Position numbers and translations under genes: made by a program. From a virus: 35,663 bases of DNA. Below are positions 2,973-33,914 of the stretch, one piece after another (position 1 is the stretch's first letter; each line of letters opens with the position of its first letter). The stretch spans positions 1 to 35,663 of IMG/VR virus record IMGVR_UViG_3300030382_003455; one strand, written 5' to 3'. The notes under the pieces were generated by a model. It had not been told where the DNA came from, searched no databases, and saw nothing but the letters and a program-made list of their open reading frames with translations.

Positions 2973-3206
2973 TTAATCGTATTCTATATGCGATACTCCT
3001 CGTTTTTTTTCCATCCAGCCCTCAGTTTCAATAACCTTCATTAAAATACCCTCCTCTGCACTGAAAATACCTATCAGTTTCCAAGTAGTTTCCTCCTTTA
3101 CAGACTCCACTAACTCAAATTGACCAGTTTCAATGTTCAGACGCTCTATTTTCGGGATTTTCATCAACCGAAGATAACTAATGAAACAGGGATTCTCTAC
3201 GCCCAT
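2973..3206 (-). CDS. Small hypothetical protein (77 aa)
   Basis: The frame encodes a charged protein rich in beta-type residues (KIPKIERLNIETGQFELVES ... LIGIFSAEEGILMKVIETEG). It lies inside the control region on the leftward strand, between the repeat cluster and the rightward promoter candidate. The annotated start gives MGVENPCFIS; an internal ATG at 3162-3164 would give a 63-aa product starting MKIPKIERL. Neither start has a good SD, so the start is uncertain. I recognise no family. Its place beside the repeats would suit a small regulator, but nothing in the sequence (no clear helix-turn-helix) shows that. Confidence 0.42.
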   Translation of the reverse strand: MGVENPCFISYLRLMKIPKIERLNIETGQFELVESVKEETTWKLIGIFSAEEGILMKVIETEGWMEKKRGVSHIEYD

Positions 3207-3216
3207 TCTTGAAAAA

Positions 3217-3246
3217 TTGCTGTAGACTGCGTGTGTGTAATATACA
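3217..3246 (+). promoter_or_regulatory. Candidate rightward promoter
   Basis: TTGCTG (3217-3222) and TATACA (3241-3246) are spaced by 18 nt, a plausible sigma70-type pair. Initiation would fall around 3253, just before the stem-loop at 3261-3338 and about 150 nt before the first rightward gene. Both boxes deviate from consensus (an alternative -10 is TAATAT at 3238-3243), so this is a candidate only. Confidence 0.35.
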
Positions 3247-3260
3247 GTATCCCTACCCCC

Positions 3261-3338
3261 GTCGCTTCAGGCGGTGCCGGACCTACATTTAGTTGAAAAA
3301 ACACGTTGAGTTGTATCAACCGTCACCACCTGAGCGAC
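3261..3338 (+). ncRNA. Structured leader element at head of rightward block
   Basis: GTCGCTTCAGGCGGTG (3261-3276) pairs with CACCACCTGAGCGAC (3324-3338): 14 base pairs with one bulged T and one C-A mismatch. Inside, GTTGA (3305-3309) pairs with TCAAC (3316-3320). The arms are GC-rich, unlike the surrounding AT-rich DNA. It would form the 5' leader of the first rightward transcript. The strand is inferred from the downstream gene. Confidence 0.5.
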
Positions 3339-17800: not shown

Positions 17801-20800
17801 TTAAGCGGCATTCTTCAACTCTTCTTGTTCTTTTTCAGCCTTTTTCTTTTTCTGTGCAACTCTATGAATAGGAATCCCTGTCATTTGTTCAACCCACATT
17901 TCAGGAACTTCATAAGTTTTTACAACACTTCTGGCTAAACGCCCAAATGGAGCCCATGTCCATAGATGATAATCTAAAAACGGTTCCCAATCATTATTTA
18001 TCAATGCTTTAGTAGGTCCGAGTATTAACCGCATTGATGGACCAGTTATTGTAGATAAAGGAGCAAGAGCTGGATGAGGCCATTGATTAAAAAACGCACG
18101 CTCTCTATGCTTTTCATCTCCAAATACCCAATCAGCAGTATCCTGCATATAAGACATAGGCGGAGGTAAAGCTGAATCAAATATAGATGATACGAATATC
18201 TGAGCTAAAGCAAAAGTTAATAAATCTGCCGTAAGTTGTCTTTGCAGTCTTTGACCCGGCAAAGTATTAATATCAAAACCATGCACTTTAGCTCTTTGCC
18301 ATGCAAGTCTTCTAAATTTTATAGAGTTCCATGCAAAAGGCATAAAACGAGTAAATATCTTTCCTGTAGATGTTCTTGAAAAAGCTGGTCTTGCACTACC
18401 ATGATATAAAAATTGCGTAGCCTCTACTCCCTTTACAGCCATTTTTATAAGGTATGGATTATTATATTCCATTGTGGGCAGTATCTGTGAAAGAGTTTCA
18501 CGGGAACTAAGATAATGGGTAAGAAATGAATCCCTACGCAACATTCTTTCCGACTTACGCATGAACCAAGCACCCGCATCAACTACTGCTTTATTTACAC
18601 CATGTTTTTTAGCTATATCATATAACGACTGATCAGGCATATTATAATCTTTTTTGAGTTCATCAGTAAACTCTGCAAGAAAGCCTTTCATTTTCTTACC
18701 CCTGAATCCTCGCTCTAAAGATGCTTCAGAAACAATAAAAGATTCTAATGCTCCAGATTCTTCAGCAAATCTGTTTACCCAGGTCATTATATTTTCAGGA
18801 GTAGCCTCAGTACCGTCTTTTAGTTTTCCTCCTTTAAATATACTATATAAATGTGATGGGCTTTTTGCCTTAGTAAAATGCCTTAAACCACTTGATGAAA
18901 TAGTATTTATATTACCACCCATCAAGTTGCCAATAGCAGTTTTTGGATGAGACAGTAATGATATAAGAGACCATTTAGCTTCAAACGCACCAAAACTTTG
19001 AACCGTTTTTCTTAAAACATACTTTCTTGCCTGTTCAGTTTTTGGCAATTCCTTTAATTTTGGAATAAGACTATCCTCAAATGATGGCAATTTAGGTGTG
19101 TCTTTTCCACCTAACTTAAAAGCAACTTTTTCTAACATATTTGACCATACTTCATCTGAAAGCCAATAATAAGCAGTTTTCCTTACTTTCTTACGCTGTT
19201 CATTTTTACGTACTAATTCTTTCTTTCTGTTATATTCATCAATTTGACCTGCGGATATCTCAGGATCTGGAATAGCTTCTAATGTTTTAATGTCTTTTTT
19301 AACTCTCTTCAATTCTTCATCATTCATACCAATCATCTGTTCATTAAAGACACTTGGATATCCCATAACGTCCCGAGCGTACATCTTCATAAAATTTTCC
19401 CACTCTTGTAAATGATCTTTATTATGAAGAGGATTATTTTTAGTAAAGTCACTTATTCTATCGTTAGCAACAATAGCAGTAAGATTTTTATAAAAAGATG
19501 ATACCCATTGGTTAGAATAGGCTTCTATCACATCAAAATCTAAAGAAAACCCAGGCATGGGAGTATCACCACGAGCTTTACCAGATCCCGGTTTGCTATT
19601 AAACCCCATAGTATCTCTTAAAAAGCCTCTATCTGTATGGTTTGCAAGCAGCCATGCCATTGCATGTTCACTTGCTCCACCATCTTCACTAGCCCTATTT
19701 CCTAAAAAGCTTTCATATGCCTGTTCCTGTAATCCAACTATACGATCTACAAGCGTTTCTCTTGTAATCTCACCTTTTCTTAATAAAGTCATATCACCAT
19801 CTACGGTTCTAAGAAATAACGGTTTTATAGAATAGTTTTCATCGGAAATAACAGAATTTTCTGCAACATCATCTGCAAGCCTTTGAGCTTCAACTTTTAC
19901 TTTACCAAGTTGTTCACTTATAAATTCACGTACTTGCCTTCGGCTTTTTCTAGTTGCATTATGCATCATTTGAGGCCAGTATTCAAATGCATTACTTCTA
20001 CTCGCTCTATTTGAACCAACATACCCTATGGGTTGAAAAGCTGTATTTCTCCATACTCTATTACCCTGATCGTCCATATCAAATCGTTTACGTGTCCGTT
20101 CACGTATCTTAGTTGCTTCAGGACTATCTGGCTTAATTTTTAACTCAGCTATACGAGCCTCAAGCATAGTCTCATATTGTATTCTATATAGAGTCTCTGC
20201 TGATAAAGATGTTTGTTCTATCAGATTGGTTATATAATCCTTACTGCCAAATGCTGCAGGCTCTAATAAAAACTTCTGTACTCTTTTAAAGTTCAGTCTA
20301 CCGCTTGGAAGAAATTCAATTATGTCATCATATTTTTTATATATATGCTCATCATCTATCTGAGACCAAAAGGTCTTCCCGGTTTTATCTGTAGCTATAA
20401 TCCATTTATTATATGTTTCTTCTAAAAATTTACCATGACTTTCACCTATCCAATCAACAATTTCTTCAGCAGTTTTCTCAATAGATTTGCCTTCTTCAGT
20501 TACACGATATTTCTCACCTTTGAGAGACTCAAACTCCGCAGACTGTTCTGCCCAAATTCTATCATAGAACTCCTGACGTAAAGCCTGAGATTCTTCACTA
20601 CCTTGTGTACCGGCACCACTATCCCTTAACATTTTTGCAACTGCTATTCTATGAAGTTTAGCAAATTTAGTTGTACCGTCTTCAAGACCTAGAATTTGAT
20701 CCCTTAAATTATAAAACCTTTGAATATCTTCTTGATTCCTCTCCAGCTCAATATTTTCCATTGTGTATACTTGACCAAAAGATTCACTCAAATATTTAAA

Positions 20801-23800
20801 TGTACTAAATGGAACTCTTATATCAAGGAGATCACTTCTGCCTTTCTTGTCTTTATATAATAGATACTGCTTATAAGTTTGGCTCATATCAAAGGTAAGC
20901 TGTTTTTCGCCAACCCTGTCAGGAAATAAATAATAATATGCTTTTTTCAGTCTTGAAGTATCAGCACCCTCAACACGGATTGATCTAATAAACTTCTGAA
21001 ACCCGCGTATATCATCATAAGTTGCTTCTGATATTGGCTTTGCAAATCCTTTTGATTCTTGTTGATAAACACCAAAATACTCTTCCATAAATAATGTTGC
21101 TTCAGGAGGAAGTTTTTTAAAATCCTCATGCAGGGTTCTCATTACTTTAGGTATATCATCAGGAACTTGTGACTTTTCTACTAATTCAGGTTCAACATCT
21201 TTAAATTTGTCACCAAGCAGTCTTTCAAGTTCCATTTTCGCTTCGACTTCTCTCTGCCTTGGCGTAATACCTTCTCCAGATTTTACCTTTTCAGGAGACA
21301 TTTCTTCAGCCATAGCCCTATCTATTGCTTTTAAAGGCTCATCTGAACGTATCATATCCCAAGTTTTGCCAAATCCGCTCATGAAGTCTCTTTTAATTCT
21401 TTCAGGAACTTCATTTGATTCAAGAGGAAAGCGGTTAAAACTTGTTTTGTTATACCATTTACTAAAATTATCTAGTACACCTTCCCAATACGCTATACTG
21501 TTTTCATTTTTATATTTTACAGTTTTGTCTATATCTTTTGCGATTTTAGGACGTTCAGGCTTTTTCTTTTCATTGGTAAGCCATGTTCTGATTTCATTTC
21601 TTGTAGCATCAGATGACCGTGTTTGATTATACAGAGAACTTGTCATATAATAATAAAAATAGTCTAATGCCAACTTTTCATCTATTCCGTATTCTTTAGC
21701 CTGTTTGTAGATTGCACGTTTACGTTTTTTAAGAGTATCATTGCCCTGCTGTAATGTCTGTTCCGAAGGAATCATCCTACGGGTATTCCCTTTTCTTGAA
21801 CGATTATAATCAACTTTCGTTTGGACGGCTAAACGGGATATTTCCTTTAAAAACGGAAAAGCACTATCGCTTTGCCCAGCATCATTCATAGCATTAACAA
21901 GCAATTCCCCTCTTTTAGATACCACAATTGCACTGTATAAATCCATAGCATCATTAAACAATAACTTTGCTTCTTTCGCAGGATCCATTGGTCTAACAAC
22001 TTTATCTCTCCACATTTTATCAAACAATTTCTGATAACGACTATCAAGGCTTTTATCTCTCTTCATACCCATTATCTTTAATAAAGAAAAATCAATCTGC
22101 CCACCAGTATTTTTATTACGTTCAACTAAATCTTTATTTTTAGGATCTTGATGAAACTTTGCCATTCTTGCGTCTACTTCTTTATAATCAGTTTGTAAAT
22201 ACACTGGAGTAATTTGCAGTTTCTCACGAACAATATAATCACGTATAGATTTATCCTGCGTTAATAACTTATTAAAATCAGTTATAAGTTTCCGCCATTG
22301 TTTATTGCCCTTATTATATTTTACCTTTATCTTATTTGATGCCATCTTATTTGCCAGATGAAACAAAGAGTTCATTCTGTATTCCGAACTCTTGGCATTG
22401 TCCATAGCAAACTGAACTTCATCAATACTCCACGGTCTATTAGAATAATAGTTTCTACCAAACAATTTTTCATTTACATTATATAAATCACCGTATTTTG
22501 TACTTTGCAACATCTTAAAATCAATTTTACTTTGCCCACCTTTTGAATCTATATATACTGCTCTTGTAAATGCTTTTTCTAAAAGTAAATCTCTTATTTC
22601 TGTAGCTGGTAATATATTCCAATATTCAGAACTATCAGCAGTTCTCTGTCCAGCCTCTACTGCCCATTTTCTATATCCTGTATCAGGATCAGTTAATTTC
22701 CTTTTATTAGTTTCCAGCATGATAAACCCATCTTTCTTACCATCTGTAAATACATCAAGTTTTACTCTGCCATTGTTTGGCTTTGAAACAACATCAGCAG
22801 TAACATAATTAAGAAAAGTTTTAGCATTTACAACAGTTCCCATAGCTTCTTTACCCTCATATGCAGCCTTTCCTACTTTACGCAATGCAAAGGGCATATA
22901 CTGACTTAAACGGCTACTGAATATTTCTTCAGTAATTTTATCTGGGAATGTACTGCCAAATGCATCATTTGCTTTTTCATCTTTACTAGGCAATGCAACC
23001 AACTTACCTTTCATTTTTATTTCTAATTCATTGGCATTGCTTTTTATTCCGTCACGAAAAGCCTTTGGTAAACCTTGATAAAAAAATACTGTATCTCCAT
23101 CAACATCTGCACCGTCAATATAGAAATGATCTTTAGGATGCATATATACGCCATGATCAGCCATTTTACTTCCATTCTCAATAAATCCGTCAAACCTAAG
23201 TATTCTAGTACCGGCAACTGCACCAGAAGGAACACGCATTAATGCCATTTCAAGAGTATCTGCTATTAATTTCTTTTCCTTACCTTTAGCACTCTGATAT
23301 TTTAATAATGCCCATTCAAGGCTTACTTCCGTATTTGTATCCAGCCACTTTATTTTCATCCCTCTATAACTATGACCCAGCATAAATGTACCGGACTTAA
23401 CTTTGCCGTGCCTTAACTTAGTAATAGGATCATTACCAGCTACCCAGCCTTTTGCACTGTTTTTCCATTTAGGATACATAAATTTTGTTTTTCTGTATCT
23501 TTGTACCATAGCTTGATATAATTCTGGTTCTGCCATAGCTACTAAAGGATCGAAATATGTATACTTTGCCCATCTTTGAAGTCTGTTTGTATAATCGCTT
23601 ATTTCTAAAAGTTCTTCTTTTTGACCGAATGAATCTTCATATTCATTAAAGCTAGTTTCCCTTGCCATTTCCGCAAGAAGTTCTTTATATAATGGATGTT
23701 TCGGATTATTAATAAGGTAAACAAATTGGGCATCCCCTATATCTTTAATATTGAAATTCTTAGGAATAGGTGCTTTTTCATTGCTTTTTAATGTTTCTAC

Positions 23801-26800
23801 AACAGAATTAGCTACAGGGTCACCATCTATAATAGGATCAAAAGCTTCACGCATTAAAGAATCAAATGCTTCTTTTGGAACCTGTAATTGATTTAATAGA
23901 ACATGAAATTGTTTTTTAATAGTCTGTTGCTTCAAAGCATGAGAATCTTCTCTTACTCCATAATCTAAACGGAGATCTGATAAGTTTATTTTTATTGTCT
24001 TAGGGTTTTTTACCTTTACTTTAGTTCCTTTCCAATTCCCGTCTTTATCTTTTTTTCTTTTAGTAAATTCGTAAGACAGATTGCCATTTTTATCCTTTTT
24101 TGCCTTACCATGATAGACATGTTCTTCATTAGGAACTATTTTGGCACCAGCCAAGGTTACAATACCCCTGTTTTTAGCACCCATAGCTGTATCATATTCA
24201 GGATGCGATGGATGGACGCCAGCCTTTATTATAAAAAGTCTTCCATCTATCCATGCTGCCACTGATGGCTTCATTCTTGATGTACTGGGATCAAATCCGT
24301 TTACTTCTAATAGTCTTTTATATAAATCAGTGTGAAGAGTAAGCCATCCATCTATTTCGCTCTCATAAAGCTTTTCAACATAACTATCTCTCCCAGTACG
24401 CATTCTATATTTTTCATGCGGTATACCTACAGTATTAGTAGTATGAGTCCCACTAGGCATCTCATCAATAGCAATGAACTCTATAGTACCATCTGGAGTT
24501 ATATCCCTGAATTTCTCTATATGTTTCTGAGGCATACCCTTACTTGCTATAATACCTTCATACTTCACGCGCTTCATAGCATTGCCAAATTGAGCATTAG
24601 GCTCATATAAGAAATTAGATAAAGTAGCTTTCTTATAAAGCGTTTCCATTTTTTCTCTTATAGGAGCGTCTACTGTTTGGTTATCAGATAACTCATCAAC
24701 CCAATTTTCCATATCACGCTTAAAAAACAAATCAGCTTTTTTATCTATTGTTCTGAATGTCTTCATGTAGGTTTTCCACATTCTGTCTAATGCACTAAGA
24801 TCAGTTAATCCAGTTCTTGGATCATCTAATGCTGTTACATTTTTATGATACGGATATACACGTTCAACGCCATTATCTTTTACAGGAATTTTTAAATAAC
24901 GATTACCATTATCAAGTTTACTTTGAAAATCATACCAATCAGCTCCAGACATTACTGGAACACGTTCTCTTAGATTGTGATCCCATCTTTGATCATACGG
25001 TTTATAAATCTCGTTAAAAAACTCTGCTTCCTTAAATTCAATTATCTTTAAGTTTCTAGGAAATACAGTTTCTTTACTTACAGGATCAATAAATTCATTA
25101 GTATTTTCATTATATATATAGTTTTTTGCGTTTGCAAACTCTATTTTTGATTTAACGGGATCAAAACCTTTAATATCTATACGTATAATATCTTTTCCAG
25201 CATTCGGTGAATACTGTTTAGTAGCTATCCAATGATTCCATTCTTTTTCAATTTCATTAGATTGCTTACCAATTCTTTCATCTAAAAGTTTATCTTTAAA
25301 ATATATTTCATCTGAAGGAGGAGGTCTAAAATTGGCATTATATTTACCTTGCCTATTATGGCGGGTATTCTCACCAAGTTTCATATTCATAGTATCGAAA
25401 TATAAGTACGGATATAATTGTTCATTTTGCAAACGATTAAAAACACCAAGCAACTCCCGTTCTACCCGTTCAGACGGAATATAATCTGGATGTTTAACCC
25501 TTATCTCATCTATAAATTCTTCATATGAACTTGTTTTCTTAATAGACGTATTAAATACATCAACAATATTTTGCAATATCTCGTCAGGCTGATCTTTTTT
25601 ATTATTATCGAATATTTCTTTTGCCAGGTCTTTTATTTTGTAAGGTATATCTAATTCTTGCTGTTCATCTGGAGGTCTTTCCATATTTTTCAAATCAATG
25701 CCTTCTCTGGCATCAGGAAGTGAATCTTCACGCCCCTGAACAATATCAAATAAAAGTTTTGTATTACCGTTTTGTATCTCTTCTCTTTGCGTATCTGACA
25801 GACTATCTAAAACCTCTTGAGCTTTTTCACTTAAACCTGTTTTTACTTCAGGATCTTTAATTTTCTTATCTATTTTATCAACTTCTCTTAAAAAATTTTC
25901 ACGTGCCTCAGAAGACCCTTCTATCTTATCTTCTAATAAAGATTTAATGACATCTTCTTTCCCCATCCTCTTATTAAACTCATACATCTCTAAAGCATCA
26001 TTAAAATCAAGTTCTCGATCTAATTTAAACGATTGTCGATTCCTTCTATAAATCCAGTTATCTTGAGAATCTTTATTAAGCAATGTTGCTTTTGATGGTG
26101 AAAGATCAATAGCCTGTCTACCTATATCACTATATTCTTTCAATATATCTTTTGCTTCAGTTATGTCTTCTTCGGTACCGCCTTTTTTACGAATAATTTC
26201 TTCTGCCTGAATAGAGTTTAGATTGAGTTGTTTTGAATTTTTAAAACCGATTTGTTTTGCACGTTTATCTAATTCCGATACTTTCTCGTTAAGCTGATCT
26301 GGTAAATTTTTAACATCACTTAATTCAGTTGCTACCTCAGTTGCAACTGATACATCTCTGGCAACATTAAAATAATCCTCAAGCTCCTTCAATGCCCGAC
26401 CTTTTGCTAATGCCTGGTCTTCTTCAGTAAGAGTATCAGTCTTACGTTTCATTTTCAAATGCGCTTCTGCTATTTCTGTATCTTGTTCCAATTTCCTTCT
26501 TAAATTAGCCATTTGTACGGACGCTTCAGTTACTTCTTCGCCTTCTTTAGCCTCTTGTTCAAACATTTCTAGTTGGCCCATACGACCATCATATTTTTGA
26601 CCTATATGCTGTTTATAATGCCATTTAACATAATCTTGAGATTCTTTATCTAATATAGAAAACTCTTCCTGATTAAGCATATCAAGGTCTTTTCCATGAT
26701 GTTTTTCACCATACATTTCGCCTTTCTTATCGTAAAAAGAACCTATATAGTTCCTAGCAGCTTTTACCTTAGCACTTGGATGAGTTGCACCGAAAAAACC

Positions 26801-27649
26801 GCCTAATATATATTCATACATTTGAACTGCAGTGGGTGCGCCTTGAGCGGTAGCTAAACCACCTTGTAAACCAGCACCTAATCCTCCCTTAACAACAGTA
26901 TTAAACCACCATTTCTCAGCACCACTTCTAACTGCTGGATTAGAATGACCCAACATCTTTCCCATATTCACAAAATTCCCTATAGTACCAAACGCTCCCC
27001 CAAACATTGCCCCATGTACAACAGAGTTTAATGCAACATCTGTTCCTTCCCATACACTACTAACCCCGGATGCAATACCAAGTGATGCGGCACTTTCATA
27101 TATATCTGCTCCAATACTGCCTTTTTTTAGATAACTGTTTACATTTATGCCAGCTTTGGTAATTAAAGGGTTTAGTCCTTTTTTTATAACAGGTTCAGCA
27201 ACCCTGAAAGGAATTGATTTAGCTACTGGAGATTGAAGGAATTTGCCAACTGTAGCAAGACCGCTGATTACTTTTTGAGAGCGTGATGCCTGTACTGCAC
27301 CTAATCCAAGCCTTGCAAGGCCAGTAGCACCGCCAGTAACAATAGAACCTAATAACGCAGGTGCAAAACCAATTAAATGCCCCATACTGTGCGCTATTTG
27401 TTCTCCTGGAGCTTCAGGATCCTCCGCCCAGCCTCCAAATGCTAGTGGACCAAGAAGTCCTTCAGAAAAACCAGATACAAATTGATTTAAATAACTGCCT
27501 TGTTTCTGTTCCTCTACATCCATATTCCTCTGAAAAGGAATATCGTATTCGCTAGAGTATTTCTCTACTTCATCTAAAAGATTGTCACTAAATAACCAAG
27601 GATTGGTATTATATAGAGATATCTGTTGTTCAAGTTCATGCGGACTCAT
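17801..27649 (-). CDS. 3282-aa giant virion protein with RNA polymerase DxDGD core
   Basis: Seen: hydrophobic segments lie at about residues 92-118 (LIGFAPALLGSIVTGGATGL) and 186-230. RVPSGAVAGTRILRFDGFIE begins at 1472 (R-x-P), MHPKD at 1503-1507, and ADVDGDTVFF at 1514-1523 with the three acids at 1515, 1517 and 1519. A possible beta-like barrel, AAWIDGRLFIIK followed by GAKNRGIVTLAG, lies near 1130-1165. The C-terminal 400 residues carry LLSHPKTAIGNLMGG and TQFLYHGSARPAFSRT. Known: R-x-P...H-P...N-A-D-F-D-G-D is the Mg-binding catalytic barrel of beta-prime, also present as DxDGD in QDE-1-like and crAss-like phage polymerases; the terminal modules recur in large ejected phage proteins. Inferred: a virion-packaged RNA polymerase injected with DNA. 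The ATG has no clear SD. Alternative: a structural giant keeping a polymerase relic, but intact acids argue against that. Confidence 0.72.
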   Translation of the reverse strand: MSPHELEQQISLYNTNPWLFSDNLLDEVEKYSSEYDIPFQRNMDVEEQKQGSYLNQFVSGFSEGLLGPLAFGGWAEDPEAPGEQIAHSMGHLIGFAPALLGSIVTGGATGLARLGLGAVQASRSQKVISGLATVGKFLQSPVAKSIPFRVAEPVIKKGLNPLITKAGINVNSYLKKGSIGADIYESAASLGIASGVSSVWEGTDVALNSVVHGAMFGGAFGTIGNFVNMGKMLGHSNPAVRSGAEKWWFNTVVKGGLGAGLQGGLATAQGAPTAVQMYEYILGGFFGATHPSAKVKAARNYIGSFYDKKGEMYGEKHHGKDLDMLNQEEFSILDKESQDYVKWHYKQHIGQKYDGRMGQLEMFEQEAKEGEEVTEASVQMANLRRKLEQDTEIAEAHLKMKRKTDTLTEEDQALAKGRALKELEDYFNVARDVSVATEVATELSDVKNLPDQLNEKVSELDKRAKQIGFKNSKQLNLNSIQAEEIIRKKGGTEEDITEAKDILKEYSDIGRQAIDLSPSKATLLNKDSQDNWIYRRNRQSFKLDRELDFNDALEMYEFNKRMGKEDVIKSLLEDKIEGSSEARENFLREVDKIDKKIKDPEVKTGLSEKAQEVLDSLSDTQREEIQNGNTKLLFDIVQGREDSLPDAREGIDLKNMERPPDEQQELDIPYKIKDLAKEIFDNNKKDQPDEILQNIVDVFNTSIKKTSSYEEFIDEIRVKHPDYIPSERVERELLGVFNRLQNEQLYPYLYFDTMNMKLGENTRHNRQGKYNANFRPPPSDEIYFKDKLLDERIGKQSNEIEKEWNHWIATKQYSPNAGKDIIRIDIKGFDPVKSKIEFANAKNYIYNENTNEFIDPVSKETVFPRNLKIIEFKEAEFFNEIYKPYDQRWDHNLRERVPVMSGADWYDFQSKLDNGNRYLKIPVKDNGVERVYPYHKNVTALDDPRTGLTDLSALDRMWKTYMKTFRTIDKKADLFFKRDMENWVDELSDNQTVDAPIREKMETLYKKATLSNFLYEPNAQFGNAMKRVKYEGIIASKGMPQKHIEKFRDITPDGTIEFIAIDEMPSGTHTTNTVGIPHEKYRMRTGRDSYVEKLYESEIDGWLTLHTDLYKRLLEVNGFDPSTSRMKPSVAAWIDGRLFIIKAGVHPSHPEYDTAMGAKNRGIVTLAGAKIVPNEEHVYHGKAKKDKNGNLSYEFTKRKKDKDGNWKGTKVKVKNPKTIKINLSDLRLDYGVREDSHALKQQTIKKQFHVLLNQLQVPKEAFDSLMREAFDPIIDGDPVANSVVETLKSNEKAPIPKNFNIKDIGDAQFVYLINNPKHPLYKELLAEMARETSFNEYEDSFGQKEELLEISDYTNRLQRWAKYTYFDPLVAMAEPELYQAMVQRYRKTKFMYPKWKNSAKGWVAGNDPITKLRHGKVKSGTFMLGHSYRGMKIKWLDTNTEVSLEWALLKYQSAKGKEKKLIADTLEMALMRVPSGAVAGTRILRFDGFIENGSKMADHGVYMHPKDHFYIDGADVDGDTVFFYQGLPKAFRDGIKSNANELEIKMKGKLVALPSKDEKANDAFGSTFPDKITEEIFSSRLSQYMPFALRKVGKAAYEGKEAMGTVVNAKTFLNYVTADVVSKPNNGRVKLDVFTDGKKDGFIMLETNKRKLTDPDTGYRKWAVEAGQRTADSSEYWNILPATEIRDLLLEKAFTRAVYIDSKGGQSKIDFKMLQSTKYGDLYNVNEKLFGRNYYSNRPWSIDEVQFAMDNAKSSEYRMNSLFHLANKMASNKIKVKYNKGNKQWRKLITDFNKLLTQDKSIRDYIVREKLQITPVYLQTDYKEVDARMAKFHQDPKNKDLVERNKNTGGQIDFSLLKIMGMKRDKSLDSRYQKLFDKMWRDKVVRPMDPAKEAKLLFNDAMDLYSAIVVSKRGELLVNAMNDAGQSDSAFPFLKEISRLAVQTKVDYNRSRKGNTRRMIPSEQTLQQGNDTLKKRKRAIYKQAKEYGIDEKLALDYFYYYMTSSLYNQTRSSDATRNEIRTWLTNEKKKPERPKIAKDIDKTVKYKNENSIAYWEGVLDNFSKWYNKTSFNRFPLESNEVPERIKRDFMSGFGKTWDMIRSDEPLKAIDRAMAEEMSPEKVKSGEGITPRQREVEAKMELERLLGDKFKDVEPELVEKSQVPDDIPKVMRTLHEDFKKLPPEATLFMEEYFGVYQQESKGFAKPISEATYDDIRGFQKFIRSIRVEGADTSRLKKAYYYLFPDRVGEKQLTFDMSQTYKQYLLYKDKKGRSDLLDIRVPFSTFKYLSESFGQVYTMENIELERNQEDIQRFYNLRDQILGLEDGTTKFAKLHRIAVAKMLRDSGAGTQGSEESQALRQEFYDRIWAEQSAEFESLKGEKYRVTEEGKSIEKTAEEIVDWIGESHGKFLEETYNKWIIATDKTGKTFWSQIDDEHIYKKYDDIIEFLPSGRLNFKRVQKFLLEPAAFGSKDYITNLIEQTSLSAETLYRIQYETMLEARIAELKIKPDSPEATKIRERTRKRFDMDDQGNRVWRNTAFQPIGYVGSNRASRSNAFEYWPQMMHNATRKSRRQVREFISEQLGKVKVEAQRLADDVAENSVISDENYSIKPLFLRTVDGDMTLLRKGEITRETLVDRIVGLQEQAYESFLGNRASEDGGASEHAMAWLLANHTDRGFLRDTMGFNSKPGSGKARGDTPMPGFSLDFDVIEAYSNQWVSSFYKNLTAIVANDRISDFTKNNPLHNKDHLQEWENFMKMYARDVMGYPSVFNEQMIGMNDEELKRVKKDIKTLEAIPDPEISAGQIDEYNRKKELVRKNEQRKKVRKTAYYWLSDEVWSNMLEKVAFKLGGKDTPKLPSFEDSLIPKLKELPKTEQARKYVLRKTVQSFGAFEAKWSLISLLSHPKTAIGNLMGGNINTISSSGLRHFTKAKSPSHLYSIFKGGKLKDGTEATPENIMTWVNRFAEESGALESFIVSEASLERGFRGKKMKGFLAEFTDELKKDYNMPDQSLYDIAKKHGVNKAVVDAGAWFMRKSERMLRRDSFLTHYLSSRETLSQILPTMEYNNPYLIKMAVKGVEATQFLYHGSARPAFSRTSTGKIFTRFMPFAWNSIKFRRLAWQRAKVHGFDINTLPGQRLQRQLTADLLTFALAQIFVSSIFDSALPPPMSYMQDTADWVFGDEKHRERAFFNQWPHPALAPLSTITGPSMRLILGPTKALINNDWEPFLDYHLWTWAPFGRLARSVVKTYEVPEMWVEQMTGIPIHRVAQKKKKAEKEQEELKNAA

Positions 27650-27663
27650 ATTTTACTGTTTTA

Positions 27664-29352
27664 TTAGTAACCAGATGGAGGATTCATATCCCATTTTGAT
27701 GGAGTTCTAAGCATCATCATTAAACTTCTTATGTCACCAAGTTTTGCTTTAGCGTCTTTTTTAGTAGACATACTTTCACCCCAATTGTAGAATTGGCTTC
27801 CAGATAACTCTTTTTCATAATTCTCAAGTACTTTAAAAAGTTGATCTTTTTTAGGAACCATAGTTGATACTTCTTTATCTTTACTAAACCAGCCACCTTT
27901 TTCAACAGTAACCTCGTCTGGTATGTTTCTAGCAATTCTTACAGCTTCTGATAAAGCGGGAAGATTTTTACCAACTTGATCTAATACATCTTGTTCTTTA
28001 TAATTTATTCCAAGAATACCAGAAGTTTTACCAAGACTAAAAGGACTTGCTAAGAAATTAAAACTCTGCCTTTCCGCTTCGCCTTTCATTTTTATATTGA
28101 GAATACTTCTTAAAACATCTCTCTCAAAATTAACATTTCCCAATTCTTTGGCTTGTTCAAACTTTTGTTCAGCTATCCCCGTTTGATGTTCTTGATCTTC
28201 TATTTGTAAAGCCATTTGCTGATTTGCTCTATCAAGTTGAAGTTCCGTATTATACATAAATTGATTTTGATCTCTAGTATTTCTACCTTGTTCAAGCATA
28301 ACCTGAATTGCTTCACGTGATTCTAAATCAAGATTAAGTCTTTTAAACGCTTCTCCCTCTACATATTGAGTTAATTCTTTTTTAGCATCAATACCTACTA
28401 ATTGACGCTTATTTAAATTACTTTGAATAAATCTCTGCATAACATTATCGTTAAGCAAACTCTCTTTTAGCCTTTCCATTTTTGCTTCATTATCCAACCC
28501 AGCAAGATTTTCTCTGGATGTTAACTGTTCCACAATACGATCCATAGCACCTGATTCTTTTACTTTAGTAATAAACTCATTACTTTGTATCTGTTTTACC
28601 ATGCGTGCCAATGACCCGTCTTCTTTCATTTTCGTAATGTTTACTCTGGTTCCAAGTTCCTTTTCCAGTCGTTTCATGGCTTCAGTATGAGATAAATTTG
28701 CTAAATCTAAACGAGTGGAGAGGTCTTTTGCCTGTCTTCCGTCCAGTCCGCCTTCAATAAGCGTTCTTTCAGTTCTTGCCCACGCTAATTTTTTATCCGT
28801 TTCTTCTCTTCGAGCGTTAATATTATCTAAATTCCGTTTTTCAGCAGATGTGGTTTGGATTTTAGTAACATCTTTTCTTCCTATTATCTCCTGTTGAGAT
28901 ATATCCTTTGAAATACCGCCCTGGAGTTCTATCTCTTGCTTTTTCTTTTCACTTCTCTTTTCTATAAGATCTATATCTACTGCTCCTTTCTGTACTATAT
29001 GTTTAGACCCTATATCACCTTTCTGTGTTATATGTTGAGATCCTACTGCACCTTCCTCTGTTATATGTTTAGACCTTACTACACCTTTCTCTTTTATATG
29101 ACCTGTCTCTACCTTTCCAGCTGCTTCTATCTGTTCTAATTCCTGGGTTCCCCTAATACCAGCAGCTTCAATAGTAGTTCTATTTCTTTCATCTGCTATA
29201 TCCTTCTGAACTTTTAACTGAGCAGAAAGAACTTCAAGTTGCTGTTCTCTATTCTTCTTATCACTTACCGCTCTTTGAAAACGATCTTTTTCACCGAAAG
29301 TATATCCAGTGAACCTTTGTTGCATCCCCGGAGGATTTATTCCTGTAGCCAT
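27664..29352 (-). CDS. Coiled-coil internal virion (ejection) protein (562 aa)
   Basis: It is almost wholly helical and charged. Residues about 59-135 form seven 11-residue repeats of hendecad type (VRSKHITEEGA, VGSQHITQKGD, IGSKHIVQKGA). The middle is a long Gln/Glu/Lys-rich helix (QFMYNTELQLDRANQQMALQ) and the C-terminal 120 residues look globular (LASPFSLGKTSGILGINYKE). GAGGT precedes the ATG, and 14 nt separate it from the giant-protein gene. Short-tailed phages commonly encode two or three adjacent internal proteins that leave the capsid and form a trans-envelope channel; the helical repeat and the position support that role here. No family-level match is claimed. Confidence 0.6.
   Translation of the reverse strand: MATGINPPGMQQRFTGYTFGEKDRFQRAVSDKKNREQQLEVLSAQLKVQKDIADERNRTTIEAAGIRGTQELEQIEAAGKVETGHIKEKGVVRSKHITEEGAVGSQHITQKGDIGSKHIVQKGAVDIDLIEKRSEKKKQEIELQGGISKDISQQEIIGRKDVTKIQTTSAEKRNLDNINARREETDKKLAWARTERTLIEGGLDGRQAKDLSTRLDLANLSHTEAMKRLEKELGTRVNITKMKEDGSLARMVKQIQSNEFITKVKESGAMDRIVEQLTSRENLAGLDNEAKMERLKESLLNDNVMQRFIQSNLNKRQLVGIDAKKELTQYVEGEAFKRLNLDLESREAIQVMLEQGRNTRDQNQFMYNTELQLDRANQQMALQIEDQEHQTGIAEQKFEQAKELGNVNFERDVLRSILNIKMKGEAERQSFNFLASPFSLGKTSGILGINYKEQDVLDQVGKNLPALSEAVRIARNIPDEVTVEKGGWFSKDKEVSTMVPKKDQLFKVLENYEKELSGSQFYNWGESMSTKKDAKAKLGDIRSLMMMLRTPSKWDMNPPSGY
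28977..29109 (-). repeat. Hendecad repeat within the 562-aa protein
   Basis: This segment encodes four clear copies of an 11-residue unit of the form S-(K/Q)-H-I-x-x-(K/E)-G-x-(V/I)-G, and the adjoining segments hold three weaker ones. Codons differ between copies, so the repeat is old or selected at protein level and not a recent slippage. Eleven-residue periodicity gives a nearly straight, right-handed coiled coil. Confidence 0.65.
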
Positions 29353-29383: not shown

Positions 29384-30127
29384 TTATACATTATATTCAG
29401 GATTATCATTATACATTGTCTGGCCTCCACCCATCATCGCACTAAATAGACCTCCAGCTGCAAGACTAGCGCCACCAGTTAAAGCCGCAGCACCTATATC
29501 ACCTGCAAAACCCATTACAGAGTTCCAGTAAGCTGATTGTGCATTCTGATTCTGAATTGACTGATTATATTGTGACTGTCTTAAGTACTGGTTATAAGCA
29601 TTTTCAGTTTGAGCATTTTGCATACTTACATTTAAAGTTCTATCATCAATCCCAGAAAGTAACCCGCCAGCCTGCCCATATATTTGTCCTGCTGTACCAT
29701 AAGCAGTATTAGCCAATCCTCCAAAAGTCCCAGCATGGCCAAGACCAGTGCTTTGAATACCCGTGAACCCTTTTCTCATTTGTTCACCAGCTGTATTCAT
29801 TGTAGCTGATCCTAAAAGAGAAGACATACCACCTTGACCAACTCCTCTAGATGCAAGAGCCTGATTCATGCCTACTCTGGTTTGAGCAGCAGTATCTCCA
29901 ACACCTTTCCTTAATTCTCCAAACATTCGTTGATAATATGCTGAACCTGGATCAAGCATTTGACGGTAAGCTTGAGAAAATTCACCTCCCAATCTTTTCT
30001 GTTTTCCAGCTGTATCTTGTAAATCTCCAATGCCTCTCAATAACCCAGAACTTGGGCTATATGATGCATATGACGGATCGAATGAAAAATCTTGTTGTAT
30101 ATCGTCAGGGTATCCAAATAATCCCAT
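29384..30127 (-). CDS. Gly/Ala/Gln-rich internal virion protein (247 aa)
   Basis: The product begins MGLFGYPDDIQQDFSFDPSY and has FSQAYRQMLDPGSAYYQRMF, then ALASRGVGQGGMSSLLGSAT, long Gly/Ser/Gln tracts, a Gln/Asn-rich helix (QYLRQSQYNQSIQNQNAQSA) and a C-terminal Gly/Ala hydrophobic helix (GDIGAAALTGGASLAAGGLF). This composition and the 'ALASRG' segment recur in ejection or pilot proteins of marine podovirus-like phages, comparable in role to T7 gp14 or P22 gp7. The C-terminal helix could enter a membrane. AGAGGT serves as SD. It is the first of the three consecutive candidate ejection genes. Confidence 0.6.
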   Translation of the reverse strand: MGLFGYPDDIQQDFSFDPSYASYSPSSGLLRGIGDLQDTAGKQKRLGGEFSQAYRQMLDPGSAYYQRMFGELRKGVGDTAAQTRVGMNQALASRGVGQGGMSSLLGSATMNTAGEQMRKGFTGIQSTGLGHAGTFGGLANTAYGTAGQIYGQAGGLLSGIDDRTLNVSMQNAQTENAYNQYLRQSQYNQSIQNQNAQSAYWNSVMGFAGDIGAAALTGGASLAAGGLFSAMMGGGQTMYNDNPEYNV

Positions 30128-30141
30128 AATCTTTACCTCTT

Positions 30142-30402
30142 TTAGTTATCCTTAAAGTCCATTTCTGTAAATACCCATCCATCATTGGTTCTGCCTTGTA
30201 TTTCATAATCACCATTGGATGCCTGTACAATTCTTATATCACCTAATTTGCCTTCAAACCTATTAGGTTCTTCAGCAACAATTTTTTTATTAACAGCATT
30301 AATAACTTCATTTATATCTTCATATAATTTTGCTAAAACACGATTTAAAGTAGGAATATCAGTGTCCGTTAAAACTAATGGTCTTTTTTTAGATATACTC
30401 AT
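30142..30402 (-). CDS. Small hypothetical virion-region protein (86 aa)
   Basis: The product begins MSISKKRPLVLTDTDIPTLN, has a helix (VLAKLYEDINEVINAVNKKI) and a C-terminal beta part (LGDIRIVQASNGDYEIQGRT NDGWVFTEM). A short coiled coil followed by a beta hairpin ending in 'G-W-x-x-x-x' is common in small phage tail-attachment or head-to-tail proteins. The ATG overlaps the upstream gene's stop by 1 nt. No family is assigned with confidence. Confidence 0.62.
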   Translation of the reverse strand: MSISKKRPLVLTDTDIPTLNRVLAKLYEDINEVINAVNKKIVAEEPNRFEGKLGDIRIVQASNGDYEIQGRTNDGWVFTEMDFKDN

Positions 30403-33400
30403 TATTGGTCTGCCATTATAATCTTACGTCTATAAATAGTGCCAAGTGCATCTACTGTACTTGTCTGTCCTTTTAAAAACCATTGCATATATTTAGCACT
30501 TTTTGTATCTGTAGTAAAATTTGTAACTGAACCACTCTCTACAACATTACTACCATCTAACTGGACGTAAAGCCCAGCTGATGCATGTCCTAAAGAACCG
30601 CTTGGAGATCCAGTAATATTATAATTATTAAATCTTTTATATTGAGTATCTTGACCTAAAGTTATTTTTTTACTATGCCAATCCCATGCTTTTACATTTA
30701 CAGGATCGTTCATTATTGTATACATTAAACTATTACAACTTGCAATTAATTCACCATTTTTTCCAATAACAATACTTTTAGGCTCTGCAGTTTCTTGAGA
30801 ACCGCCATATATTTGGAAATTTCGCCATAAATCCCATCGTTTTTTTATAACATTGTAAGTCCAAGTCGGATATAATCCACTAGAAGTTTTAAATACTATA
30901 ATAAAACTTTTCATTTTATTGGAAAATGATATTAATGGACTGTATGTGGTATCTATAGTTTGCCAACTATAAGTAGTATCACCTCTTGATATGGCTATAG
31001 ATATAGGATCTGCAGTTCTTCCATTATGTAAATAAATATGTCGCCCATCAGCAAAACACATCCCATGATCCGAAACGGCAATTGAACTTTGAGATAGGCA
31101 ACCAACGCCTTCAATAGTGTCCTCTATATATAAATTATTAGGTTCTATTCTATACATATTATTTTCATCAAAAGCATATAACCTACCATTAAAAGATTTT
31201 AGTGCAGTTGGAGAAGTCGGCAAAATTAAGAAATCATTGATCCAATTAAACTGATCATAATTATATGGTTTTGATTTAAAAAGATAATTAGTTGCATCCT
31301 TGATTAATGAATGATGACATTTCGCTACAAATAAATGACTATTTAAATCTGTTGATAAACTATAGTTTGGAATAGTGAAATCAAGTACTTCAGATATTCC
31401 TGTTCTTGCTTCATAACTTGAACCATCTACATGATTATCAATAAATACTTTGGTTCTTGTTGTTCCCCAGGTTGCATCAGTAGAATATTTCCAACTCACA
31501 TCAAGATCAAATGATTTTACCATTCTGTAAAACCCTGTTGGCTTAGTATCACCATCTGTTGCACTTTCTGCCCTATATAAAATAACTCCAGTTACCCTTG
31601 AACTAAGAGAATCTGTATATAAATCAAAAGTAACTTGAACATTTTTGGCTTCGGGAGTATCTAATTGCCATTCTATCCCCAATGGACTTTCCTGATAGCC
31701 ATCATATATAAATGATACTTTATACCAATATTCTTTAGTAGCAATAAAAGACCCAGCTGACATACCTGTTTGAGATAATGTTAAATCTAATGGCGCTTGC
31801 TGTCTTTTTGTCCATCCAGTAAAAGTAGTTGTATTAGTACTGCTTAAAGTTGCTAGTTTTCCATTATCGGTTCCAGAATTAAGAAAAAGCTCATAAGTAA
31901 AACCAGTATCAGAGCAAGAAATAATAGCATCTTTTACTTTAGCTGCATCTGTTGCATAGATAAGCGTTCCAACACTTGCCGCTCCAGATGCAAACCTATA
32001 AACAGTTTCATCACTATTGTGAGATGAAAAACCATCACTTGTAGCGTACCAATGGTTTAATACCATAGTAGAACTAACTGATGGTGTAGGATCAACATAT
32101 TTCCAATGTTCTAATTTTGTATCATTACTAGTGACTCCAGTAGATCCAGCTCTGTTTACCCCTACAATAATTCTGTCATTAGTTGCATGACCACTATCAT
32201 GACTGTATATAGATGTAATATTATCCCACGAAGTTTGTAAAGATGCATTTGTCAAATCTGTGCCATCACCATACTTACCAATAACATCAGTAGCACTTGC
32301 ACCAGTTTTTAATCGAACTGGAAACCATTTTGTTTCATCTATATCGTTACTTGCATAAGTAGTTATATGATAAACTGGAGCATAATCATTTTTCACAAAA
32401 TTCATTACAGGTCCATTCATATCTACAACCTGATGAGGAACTGCAGCTCCTGTTGTTGCATTATTTAAACAATTTATACCCAATCTGTAAGTCTGATTAT
32501 CATCTACTACAAATTCACAAATCCACCCCACCCAAGCAGTATCATTAGCCTTTATTAATGATGCTTTTGTATAAGGAATAATAGCCGCATTAGCAGGATA
32601 ACTATTACTTGGTGCTGTACCTTGACTGGTAGTATTGCTATCGTACCATGCTCCAATTTCTAAAGCATCGGAACCGCGCAATGTACTCTTATAGCCTTGC
32701 CATGGAGTTCTATCTGTAAATGTTAAGGTTCCAGCAGTCCCGGTAGGAGCAGTCGCATTTTGAAGTAAACCTCTTCCAACAGCAGTAGTTGGAGCATTAA
32801 CCTGTCCTTCTCCATGAAAAGTATGTCCACCCGATTTAGCCAGCCATATATGCCAGGTACTTGCTGCACCTGTTTCTATAATATCAGTAAAATCATGACT
32901 AGTTTCAGTTCCAGCTTGAGTTATTCCATAGGTTTTTGAAACAGTATGGGTAGTAGATGATACGTCAATCCAAATAAGTGAATCATTGTCGTCTACTATC
33001 ATTAGCAAATTATTATGATCCAAAGCAAGTGCTTTTGTATTTGTAAAAACTAAATTAGAAACATATACAGGGTAATCAACATCGTCTTTATCAATATAGT
33101 AAAGATAATTTCCATCAAAAGATATTCCATAAATATAATCTCCATATTCAACTGTTTTATGAAATGATGGAAAAGTAGTAGGAGAATGTAATTCCGCATC
33201 TGCCTTAACTAAGCTAGTTGATGCAGCCACTCCAAATTGTCCTCGACTTTCAAATCCGCACCAGAGCGGTTTATTTGCAGAACCGTTTCCCATTCCAATA
33301 TGAACTTCTTTATTATTTTTCACCATAGACGGAATACCGGTAACAGATTCAGCAGATGAAGAAATATCAGCTCTTATTGGAGTTTCTGGCAAATCATAAA

Positions 33401-33914
33401 GATCATCAACTTTTTTTATTTTATTATCACTATCTTGGTAATACACAATATGATGAGTACCATCATTATTTATCATTACAGCTCGATCAGCTATATAATT
33501 CCCGCCAGTTCCTTCATATACTAATGTATCATTAACAATAGTCCCAGCTCCAGTCCATCCAGAACAACCAGTAAGTCTTTCTGTTCCTGAATCATTACCT
33601 GTATAAGTTAATTTTTGGCTATTACCTAAAGAATCTGTAAATATGATAGTACCTGAAGCAGCAAAATCAGCTGAATCATCTAAGCCTAGTATTGTCGACC
33701 CATTTGCCAAATTACTACTTATTGGATTGCTATCGGCCCCAGTTTCAATAACATACCTAATCTCATCATACGGTATCCCTTTTAAAACACCGTCTTCAGC
33801 CATAGGATCTATATTCAAACTGTAGGTTGCAGCATCTTCTGCTAAATCAGTATCAACTGGAGTCGTTACTGTACCAACATGGAAGTTTTTTATCTCATGT
33901 AACCTCTTAGCCAC
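30402..33914 (-). CDS. Tail nozzle/stem-like protein (1170 aa)
   Basis: The product begins MAKRLHEIKNFHVGTVTTPV and consists mostly of beta-rich repeats suggestive of propeller blades (HHIVYYQDSDNKIKKVDDLY; YIYGISFDGNYLYYIDKDDV; LDHNNLLMIVDDNDSLIWID). The C-terminal third has FNWINDFLILPTSPTALKSF, LYAFDENNMYRIEPNN, VGCLSQSSIAVSDHGMCFAD and IYLHNGRTADPIS, resembling the 'settings/GC...s.v...g..fl...G' blades of T7 gp12/P22 gp10-type nozzle proteins. At 1170 aa it is longer than T7 gp12 (794 aa). A central Thr/Ser/Asn-rich stretch (DRTPWQGYKSTLRGSDALEI) may be an inserted domain for host contact. Position between the ejection genes and lysis genes suits a tail part; a fibre function is possible. 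Confidence 0.55.
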   Translation of the reverse strand: MAKRLHEIKNFHVGTVTTPVDTDLAEDAATYSLNIDPMAEDGVLKGIPYDEIRYVIETGADSNPISSNLANGSTILGLDDSADFAASGTIIFTDSLGNSQKLTYTGNDSGTERLTGCSGWTGAGTIVNDTLVYEGTGGNYIADRAVMINNDGTHHIVYYQDSDNKIKKVDDLYDLPETPIRADISSSAESVTGIPSMVKNNKEVHIGMGNGSANKPLWCGFESRGQFGVAASTSLVKADAELHSPTTFPSFHKTVEYGDYIYGISFDGNYLYYIDKDDVDYPVYVSNLVFTNTKALALDHNNLLMIVDDNDSLIWIDVSSTTHTVSKTYGITQAGTETSHDFTDIIETGAASTWHIWLAKSGGHTFHGEGQVNAPTTAVGRGLLQNATAPTGTAGTLTFTDRTPWQGYKSTLRGSDALEIGAWYDSNTTSQGTAPSNSYPANAAIIPYTKASLIKANDTAWVGWICEFVVDDNQTYRLGINCLNNATTGAAVPHQVVDMNGPVMNFVKNDYAPVYHITTYASNDIDETKWFPVRLKTGASATDVIGKYGDGTDLTNASLQTSWDNITSIYSHDSGHATNDRIIVGVNRAGSTGVTSNDTKLEHWKYVDPTPSVSSTMVLNHWYATSDGFSSHNSDETVYRFASGAASVGTLIYATDAAKVKDAIISCSDTGFTYELFLNSGTDNGKLATLSSTNTTTFTGWTKRQQAPLDLTLSQTGMSAGSFIATKEYWYKVSFIYDGYQESPLGIEWQLDTPEAKNVQVTFDLYTDSLSSRVTGVILYRAESATDGDTKPTGFYRMVKSFDLDVSWKYSTDATWGTTRTKVFIDNHVDGSSYEARTGISEVLDFTIPNYSLSTDLNSHLFVAKCHHSLIKDATNYLFKSKPYNYDQFNWINDFLILPTSPTALKSFNGRLYAFDENNMYRIEPNNLYIEDTIEGVGCLSQSSIAVSDHGMCFADGRHIYLHNGRTADPISIAISRGDTTYSWQTIDTTYSPLISFSNKMKSFIIVFKTSSGLYPTWTYNVIKKRWDLWRNFQIYGGSQETAEPKSIVIGKNGELIASCNSLMYTIMNDPVNVKAWDWHSKKITLGQDTQYKRFNNYNITGSPSGSLGHASAGLYVQLDGSNVVESGSVTNFTTDTKSAKYMQWFLKGQTSTVDALGTIYRRKIIMADQ

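Follow-up and report, generated by a model that had tools for sequence, protein, structure and literature searches.

The window examined here is the full 35,663 bp of an IMG/VR virus record (IMGVR_UViG_3300030382_003455). The last gene of its late block is an open reading frame (ORF) on the minus strand encoding a protein of 3282 aa, here called the giant protein, which is laid out as an N-terminal part, a two-barrel RNA polymerase (RNAP) core and a C-terminal part. The presence of the core is well supported by conservation and by the predicted fold. The giant protein is very likely a single-chain two-barrel RNAP embedded in a podoviral ejection protein and carried in the virion; we infer both its activity and, from gene order, its packaging. 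Its parts are located as follows.

17801–27649 (−): giant protein, 3282 aa; open ORF, last gene of the late block.
27314–27376 (−): hydrophobic N-terminal segment, residues 92–112, from hydropathy.
21230–24772 (−): modelled RNAP core, residues 960–2140 (AlphaFold2 model, Foldseek).
23795–24412 (−): proposed β-like double-psi β-barrel (DPBB-B), residues 1080–1285, with invariant K1127, K1142, K1170 and K1246 (isolated model).
23228–23236 (−): R1472-x-P1474, present in 54/54 aligned giants.
23135–23140 (−): H1504-P1505, variable (H in 49/54, P in 35/54).
23093–23107 (−): D1515-x-D1517-G-D1519, proposed Mg-binding catalytic loop of the β′-like barrel (DPBB-A); 54/54 giants, 63/63 loci.
22787–22894 (−): proposed bridge helix, residues 1586–1621 (36 residues), from model secondary structure; G1599 and V1607 conserved.
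17855–19012 (−): most conserved C-terminal module, residues 2880–3265, hydrophobic at 3139–3162 (hhalign between subfamilies; hydropathy).

The catalytic motif comprises R1472-V-P1474, G1480 and G1488 of a glycine-containing loop, H1504-P1505, eight residues, and A1514-D-V-D-G-D1519, running from R1472 to D1519 at 23236–23093 on the minus strand. All these elements, including the three aspartates, had been reported in an earlier note on this DNA, made from the sequence alone, and are present in the ORF where that note placed them. The eight-residue gap compares with seven residues between HP and ADFDGD in cellular β′, as the earlier note had also pointed out. The chance expectation of the whole composite motif is ~1e-7 per protein of such length and composition; since DxDGD by itself is expected 0.06 times, the motif alone is no proof, which has to come from conservation and fold.

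Homologues of the giant protein form two subfamilies, together comprising at least 257 loci in public viral contigs. The close subfamily has nine loci in IMG/VR, from which the close relatives were collected at full length; their full-length giants are 48–56% identical to that of the window. The second, distant subfamily has at least 248 IMG/VR loci with giants of 2,700–3,400 aa, which carry RVPMDSxSGA...HPRTMxALGGADLDGDKAF and were found by a degenerate DNA scan of IMG/VR for HPx8ADxDGD. The two subfamilies are homologous in their C-termini (hhalign E = 2e-89, 40% identity) and in their cores (hhalign E = 1e-32).

The catalytic residues are retained throughout. Among loci chosen by the giant's C-terminus alone, without using the motif, 63 reach the core and all 63 keep the aspartate triplet of DxDGD, one of them reading ADVDGDQ. 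Wide loss of the triplet, which had been named beforehand as an outcome that would speak against a polymerase, thus did not occur in this sample. Across 54 aligned giants, mostly 16–20% identical to the window's protein over the core, R1472, P1474, G1480, D1515, D1517, G1518 and D1519 never vary, K1142 and K1170 are the same in every giant having those positions, and the motif stretch ranks among the better-conserved parts of the core. The H-P pair varies (HP, HG, HS, HK, HQ, NP, SQ and RQ), and the spacing from the arginine to the first aspartate differs between the subfamilies (43 in that of the window, 39 in the larger one). These two points qualify the match to β′ reported earlier. The impression that many relatives lack the motif was rejected: what varies is H-P, and the triplet is intact.

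The AlphaFold2 model of residues 960–2140, computed with 52 aligned sequences as input, has a mean predicted local distance difference test score (pLDDT) of 83.7 and a predicted template modelling score (pTM) of 0.74. The top Foldseek matches in the Protein Data Bank (PDB) are the virion RNAP of crAss-like phage phi14:2 (PDB entry 6vr4, E = 8.6e-8), QDE-1 (E = 5e-7) and RDR2 (E = 2e-4). All 15 PDB chains at E ≤ 1e-3 are single-chain two-barrel RNAPs (8.6e-8 to 4e-4), so that the model shows the overall QDE-1/crAss-like fold, alongside the DxDxD loop and upstream R-x-P of that class; chains of the largest subunit of cellular RNAP come next (E about 0.005–0.04). In a viral structure library the best matches are unnamed proteins (1.7e-30) and crAss-like RNAPs. 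The structure search proposed in the earlier note thus returned a matching fold. The region with K1142 and K1170 is β-rich in the model, and a second, β-like double-psi barrel in the core is likely. The 36-residue helix 1586–1621 occupies the place expected of a bridge helix after the catalytic barrel, with a glycine pattern resembling that of six of nine crAss RNAPs.

Profile comparisons were made with two groups of known polymerases. Alignment with nine crAss RNAPs (hhalign) extends over 58 columns (P = 0.002; reversed control 0.7), and that with YonO-like proteins over 24 columns at the motif (P = 7e-5). The arginine-to-aspartate spacing of 39 is common to the larger subfamily, a provirus-like relative described below and all nine crAss RNAPs, whereas it is 46–52 in YonO-like proteins. 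Because of these alignments and spacings, the core is considered to be folded like, and probably to work like, the crAss/QDE-1 branch. Single-sequence comparison of the giant with crAss gp66 was uninformative.

The lineage appears to be separate and was not found in named phages, which supports a suggestion of the earlier note. Searches of the giant protein and its profile against Pfam, PHROGs and PDB sequences gave nothing useful and assigned no family; a match to Pfam DUF6824 fell far under the cut-off and was discarded. The core and C-terminus of both subfamilies, searched against 50,697 phage records, gave zero sequence matches. No description of such a giant polymerase protein was found in open papers, subscription papers and supplements lying outside the search.

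The HPx8ADxDGD scan also returned other proteins (loci L008–L126). These are mostly YonO-like proteins of ~900 aa, which appear common in viral metagenomes; the one tested corresponds to phrog_4291, named RNA-dependent RNA polymerase, and has an N-terminal resolvase-type helix-turn-helix. In locus L107 (4262–12364, −), R-W-P...HPESIVGKMQADHDGDN occurs towards the C-terminus of a 2701-aa ORF, which could encode a further giant with a two-barrel polymerase core, belonging to another sequence family. Locus L124 (9472–11142, +) holds a 557-aa ORF with NRNPSLHRG...HPATNVAAFNADYDGDQM, a pattern near that of a split β′ subunit.

The genes around the giant bear on its role in the virion.

1–327 (−): portal, P22-like, cut by the contig start (phrog_156).
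426–1913 (−): large terminase (TerL; phrog_38, E = 1e-79), 67–86% identity in relatives.
3191–3310 (+): candidate promoter region, a non-coding block at the junction of the divergent early and late blocks, conserved in an alignment of four relatives.
27664–29352 (−): proposed second ejection protein, 562 aa (position; relative in G001; similar-sized gene in second-subfamily loci).
29384–30127 (−): proposed first ejection protein, 247 aa, Gly/Gln-rich, gp7/gp14-like by position (synteny with the MW202674 trio).
30402–33914 (−): late virion protein, 1170 aa, upstream of the cassette; conserved in G001, G002 and G005.

The nearly complete relatives G001, G002 and G005 (47, 51 and 46 kb) share one gene plan. 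Their early block, on one strand, encodes a ParB-like protein, a Sak annealing protein, a primase-helicase and a RusA-like resolvase. The late block, on the other strand, starts with a proposed small terminase, TerL, the P22-like portal (724 aa), the capsid protein and further late genes, and ends with an endolysin, a phosphoesterase and proteins of about 1,100 aa, 86 aa, 247 aa and 310–562 aa, followed by the giant. The second subfamily has a similar late-block end and a convergent early block, and in both subfamilies the giant comes last in the late cassette, after a ~250-aa protein and a larger one of about 400–560 aa. In the P22-like podovirus MW202674 the late block ends with proteins of 253, 501 and 846 aa, in the same place and order. 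In phage N4, gp50 is about 3,500 residues long, has its RNAP at 998–2103 and acts together with two smaller ejection proteins of the cassette gp50/51/52 (PMC12633501); with its core at about residues 1000–1950 of 3282 and this cassette order, the giant has an N4-type giant-chain layout. From the cassette order, the MW202674 trio and the N4 gp50 parallel, the giant is proposed to be the third ejection protein. No other polymerase-sized gene was found outside the structural block in G001, G002 and G005. Fold, invariance of the catalytic residues and gene context together support the central claim of the earlier note, that a multisubunit-type RNAP core sits in a giant ejection-type protein.

The non-coding block at 3191–3310 has the pattern TTGAAAAATT...GTAGAnTGnGTG...CCCCC...GTTGAAAAA in four relatives. 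An AT-rich cluster of TAACAGTA/TACTGTTA repeats lies at 2830–2965, directly upstream of the proposed small terminase gene; these repeats are clearest in the window and G005 and looser in other relatives, and the ParB-like protein or a regulator might bind to them. A search for a repeated early promoter motif found none, the block at 3191–3310 being the single conserved non-coding stretch to stand out. One further record of the group (G007, behind locus L209), of 88,986 bp, contains two large terminase genes of the group, 81% and 67% to the window, and is perhaps a joined or chimeric assembly.

In the mechanism proposed, a single cassette would give rise late to the giant and its two smaller partners, and the giant would be packed into the capsid, as gene order suggests. 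At infection the three proteins would exit through the short tail, by analogy with N4 gp50/51/52 and P22 gp7/20/16, and the N- and C-terminal parts of the giant may, on the same analogy, help to form or anchor a DNA conduit in the cell envelope. Residues of about 1080–1900 would fold in the cell into the polymerase, in which the β′-like barrel would hold Mg via D1515, D1517 and D1519 and the β-like barrel would supply the lysines K1142 and K1170. As the DNA enters, the ejected polymerase may then transcribe its early block (ParB-like, Sak, primase-helicase and resolvase genes), either ahead of the host polymerase or independently of it.

Some results weigh against a packaged polymerase of this kind. 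HMMER found no match of the giant to known RNAPs, the similarity being limited to the catalytic motif, and the template modelling (TM) scores of the model are low (0.26 by query). The isolated model of residues 1080–1285 (pLDDT 78.6), searched with Foldseek against 350,542 PDB chains, has 6vr4 as its best match, a weak one (E = 0.65, probability 0.84). No promoter for the giant polymerase was identified.

Four other explanations were considered. The two-barrel RNAP could be made in the infected cell and, rather than being injected, transcribe other phage genes as do YonO or P23-45 gp64. YonO-type phage RNAPs of ~900 aa have a similar motif, and packaging of the giant is deduced from gene order; yet the gene follows ejection-type genes and closes the late structural block, outside the early block, its product is three times the length of YonO with long conserved N- and C-terminal parts, and the known giant fusions of N4, crAss-like phages and P23-45 are virion proteins (PMC12633501, PMC7886860, PMC10770324). 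We regard this explanation as unlikely. That the giant is a former RNAP, now a purely structural ejection protein, is in our view quite improbable: most of the chain does lie outside the polymerase, and enzymes can turn into structural proteins, but decay would not keep the aspartate triplet, R-x-P and the lysines invariant at such core divergence, nor does it agree with the rank of the motif stretch among the better-conserved parts of the core. There is very little to recommend the barrels of another nucleic-acid enzyme (a primase or PolD-type DNA polymerase) or of a template-independent synthase; PolD too has two double-psi barrels (PMC10770324), and no DNA polymerase gene was recognised in the relatives, but RNAPs fill the best 50 PDB matches, with no PolD chain among them. 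A chance motif without polymerase homology, for which the expected frequency of DxDGD alone and the unrelated ORFs with HPx8ADxDGD surfacing in the IMG/VR scan might be cited, is contradicted by the invariance in 54 giants and the fold match, and can be dismissed.

A provirus-like relative bears on the host range of the group. A first profile scan of genome contigs found nothing; a second found the copy at about 92,000–142,620 of JAHISV010000010.1 (G009 contig C3; loci L230/L233–L235), a contig of a Bacteroidetes metagenome-assembled genome (MAG). It matches in TerL (50%), portal (49%) and capsid (46%), and near the end of its late block encodes a 2925-aa giant with RVP...HP...ADLDIDK, that is, with crAss-type DxDID rather than DxDGD; the idea that this giant has no motif was rejected once DxDID was allowed for. 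To its left lie a tRNA-Ser gene (91,715–91,804) and genes of bacterial (Bacteroidetes-like) type, a tyrosine-recombinase-like ORF lies at the contig end, and the right boundary is at or beyond that end. The copy points to Bacteroidota as hosts of at least some members of the group, with a binning error of the MAG contig possible. A fragment of an Ignavibacteriae MAG (L231) encodes a short piece of the giant's C-terminal module and is perhaps a prophage remnant.

We lean slightly towards a broader reading, in which widespread unnamed podoviruses with a P22-like portal, at least one of them provirus-like and in Bacteroidota, have an N4-style giant ejection protein with a crAss/QDE-1-type core. 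The N4 design would then have arisen twice from unrelated polymerases, or the core would have been swapped within a conserved ejection frame. If so, the provirus, with DxDID and a spacing equal to that of crAss RNAPs, would identify the group as sister to, or source of, the virion RNAP of Crassvirales. The group adds a lineage of uncultured podoviruses with compact genomes (about 46–51 kb in the relatives), common in public viral contigs, in which one ejection protein apparently holds the complete enzyme. Being a single chain, this enzyme lends itself to structural work; the lineage also allows a direct test of whether the same ejection frame gave rise more than once to transcription by an ejected polymerase, and it possibly links crAss-like with other two-barrel RNAPs.

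Among known virion RNAPs, the two-barrel class is represented in crAss-like phages, in P23-45 and its relatives and, by multi-subunit enzymes, in phiKZ-like phages. The list in the earlier note was incomplete, omitting the phiKZ type and the two-barrel RNAP that P23-45 has fused to its tail tape protein (PMC10770324). The closest fold match to the giant's core is crAss phi14:2 gp66 (PDB entry 6VR4; gp077 in KC821624). The giants resemble Crassvirales RNAPs in the spacing of 39 (larger subfamily), R-x-P, DxDxD and their form as a giant late-block protein, and one relative appears to share with crAss-like phages a Bacteroidota host. However, sequence likeness is detectable over about 58 columns only, and Crassvirales RNAPs have DFD[IV]D where the giants, the provirus excepted, have DxDGD. 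The genomes are about half the size, with one giant rather than several, and the TerL, portal and capsid families are others (phrog_38/156/1328, against phrog_6681/6547/11589 in phi14:2); membership of Crassvirales, considered for the similar late gene order, was rejected on these families. The size of the giant, stressed in the earlier note, is not unusual, since Crassvirales RNAP fusions exceed it, as in a 14,841-bp coding sequence in cr118_1.

The fusion of P23-45 gp96 to a tail tape protein (PMC10770324) is likewise a two-barrel RNAP within a giant virion protein, detected through a lone DFDGD. Its RNAP is N-terminal, in the tail tape protein of a long-tailed phage, whereas here it is central; the metallopeptidase domain and second RNAP gene of P23-45 were not seen. 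The giant matches no tail-tape family in Pfam or PHROGs and the portal is P22-like, so that it is not of the P23-45 type. QDE-1 and RDR2 (the latter from plants), of the kind of polymerase that serves RNA interference in eukaryotes, are similar in fold and YonO (phrog_4291) in motif profile, but these proteins, of about 900–1,100 aa, are not virion fusions. The 3,695-aa giant protein of phage Skulduggery is without DxDxD; the motif is thus not a general feature of giant proteins in such phages. With N4 gp50 of the Schitoviridae, the giant shares a length of about 3,300–3,500 aa, a mid-chain RNAP, two smaller cassette partners and a podovirus setting. The T7-type profile PF00940 gave no match in seven records, with its control silent too; the N4 core is T7-type, whereas the core here is two-barrel by its predicted fold. 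Virion RNAPs as a kind are already known, and what is new here is the N4 layout combined with a crAss/QDE-1-type core.
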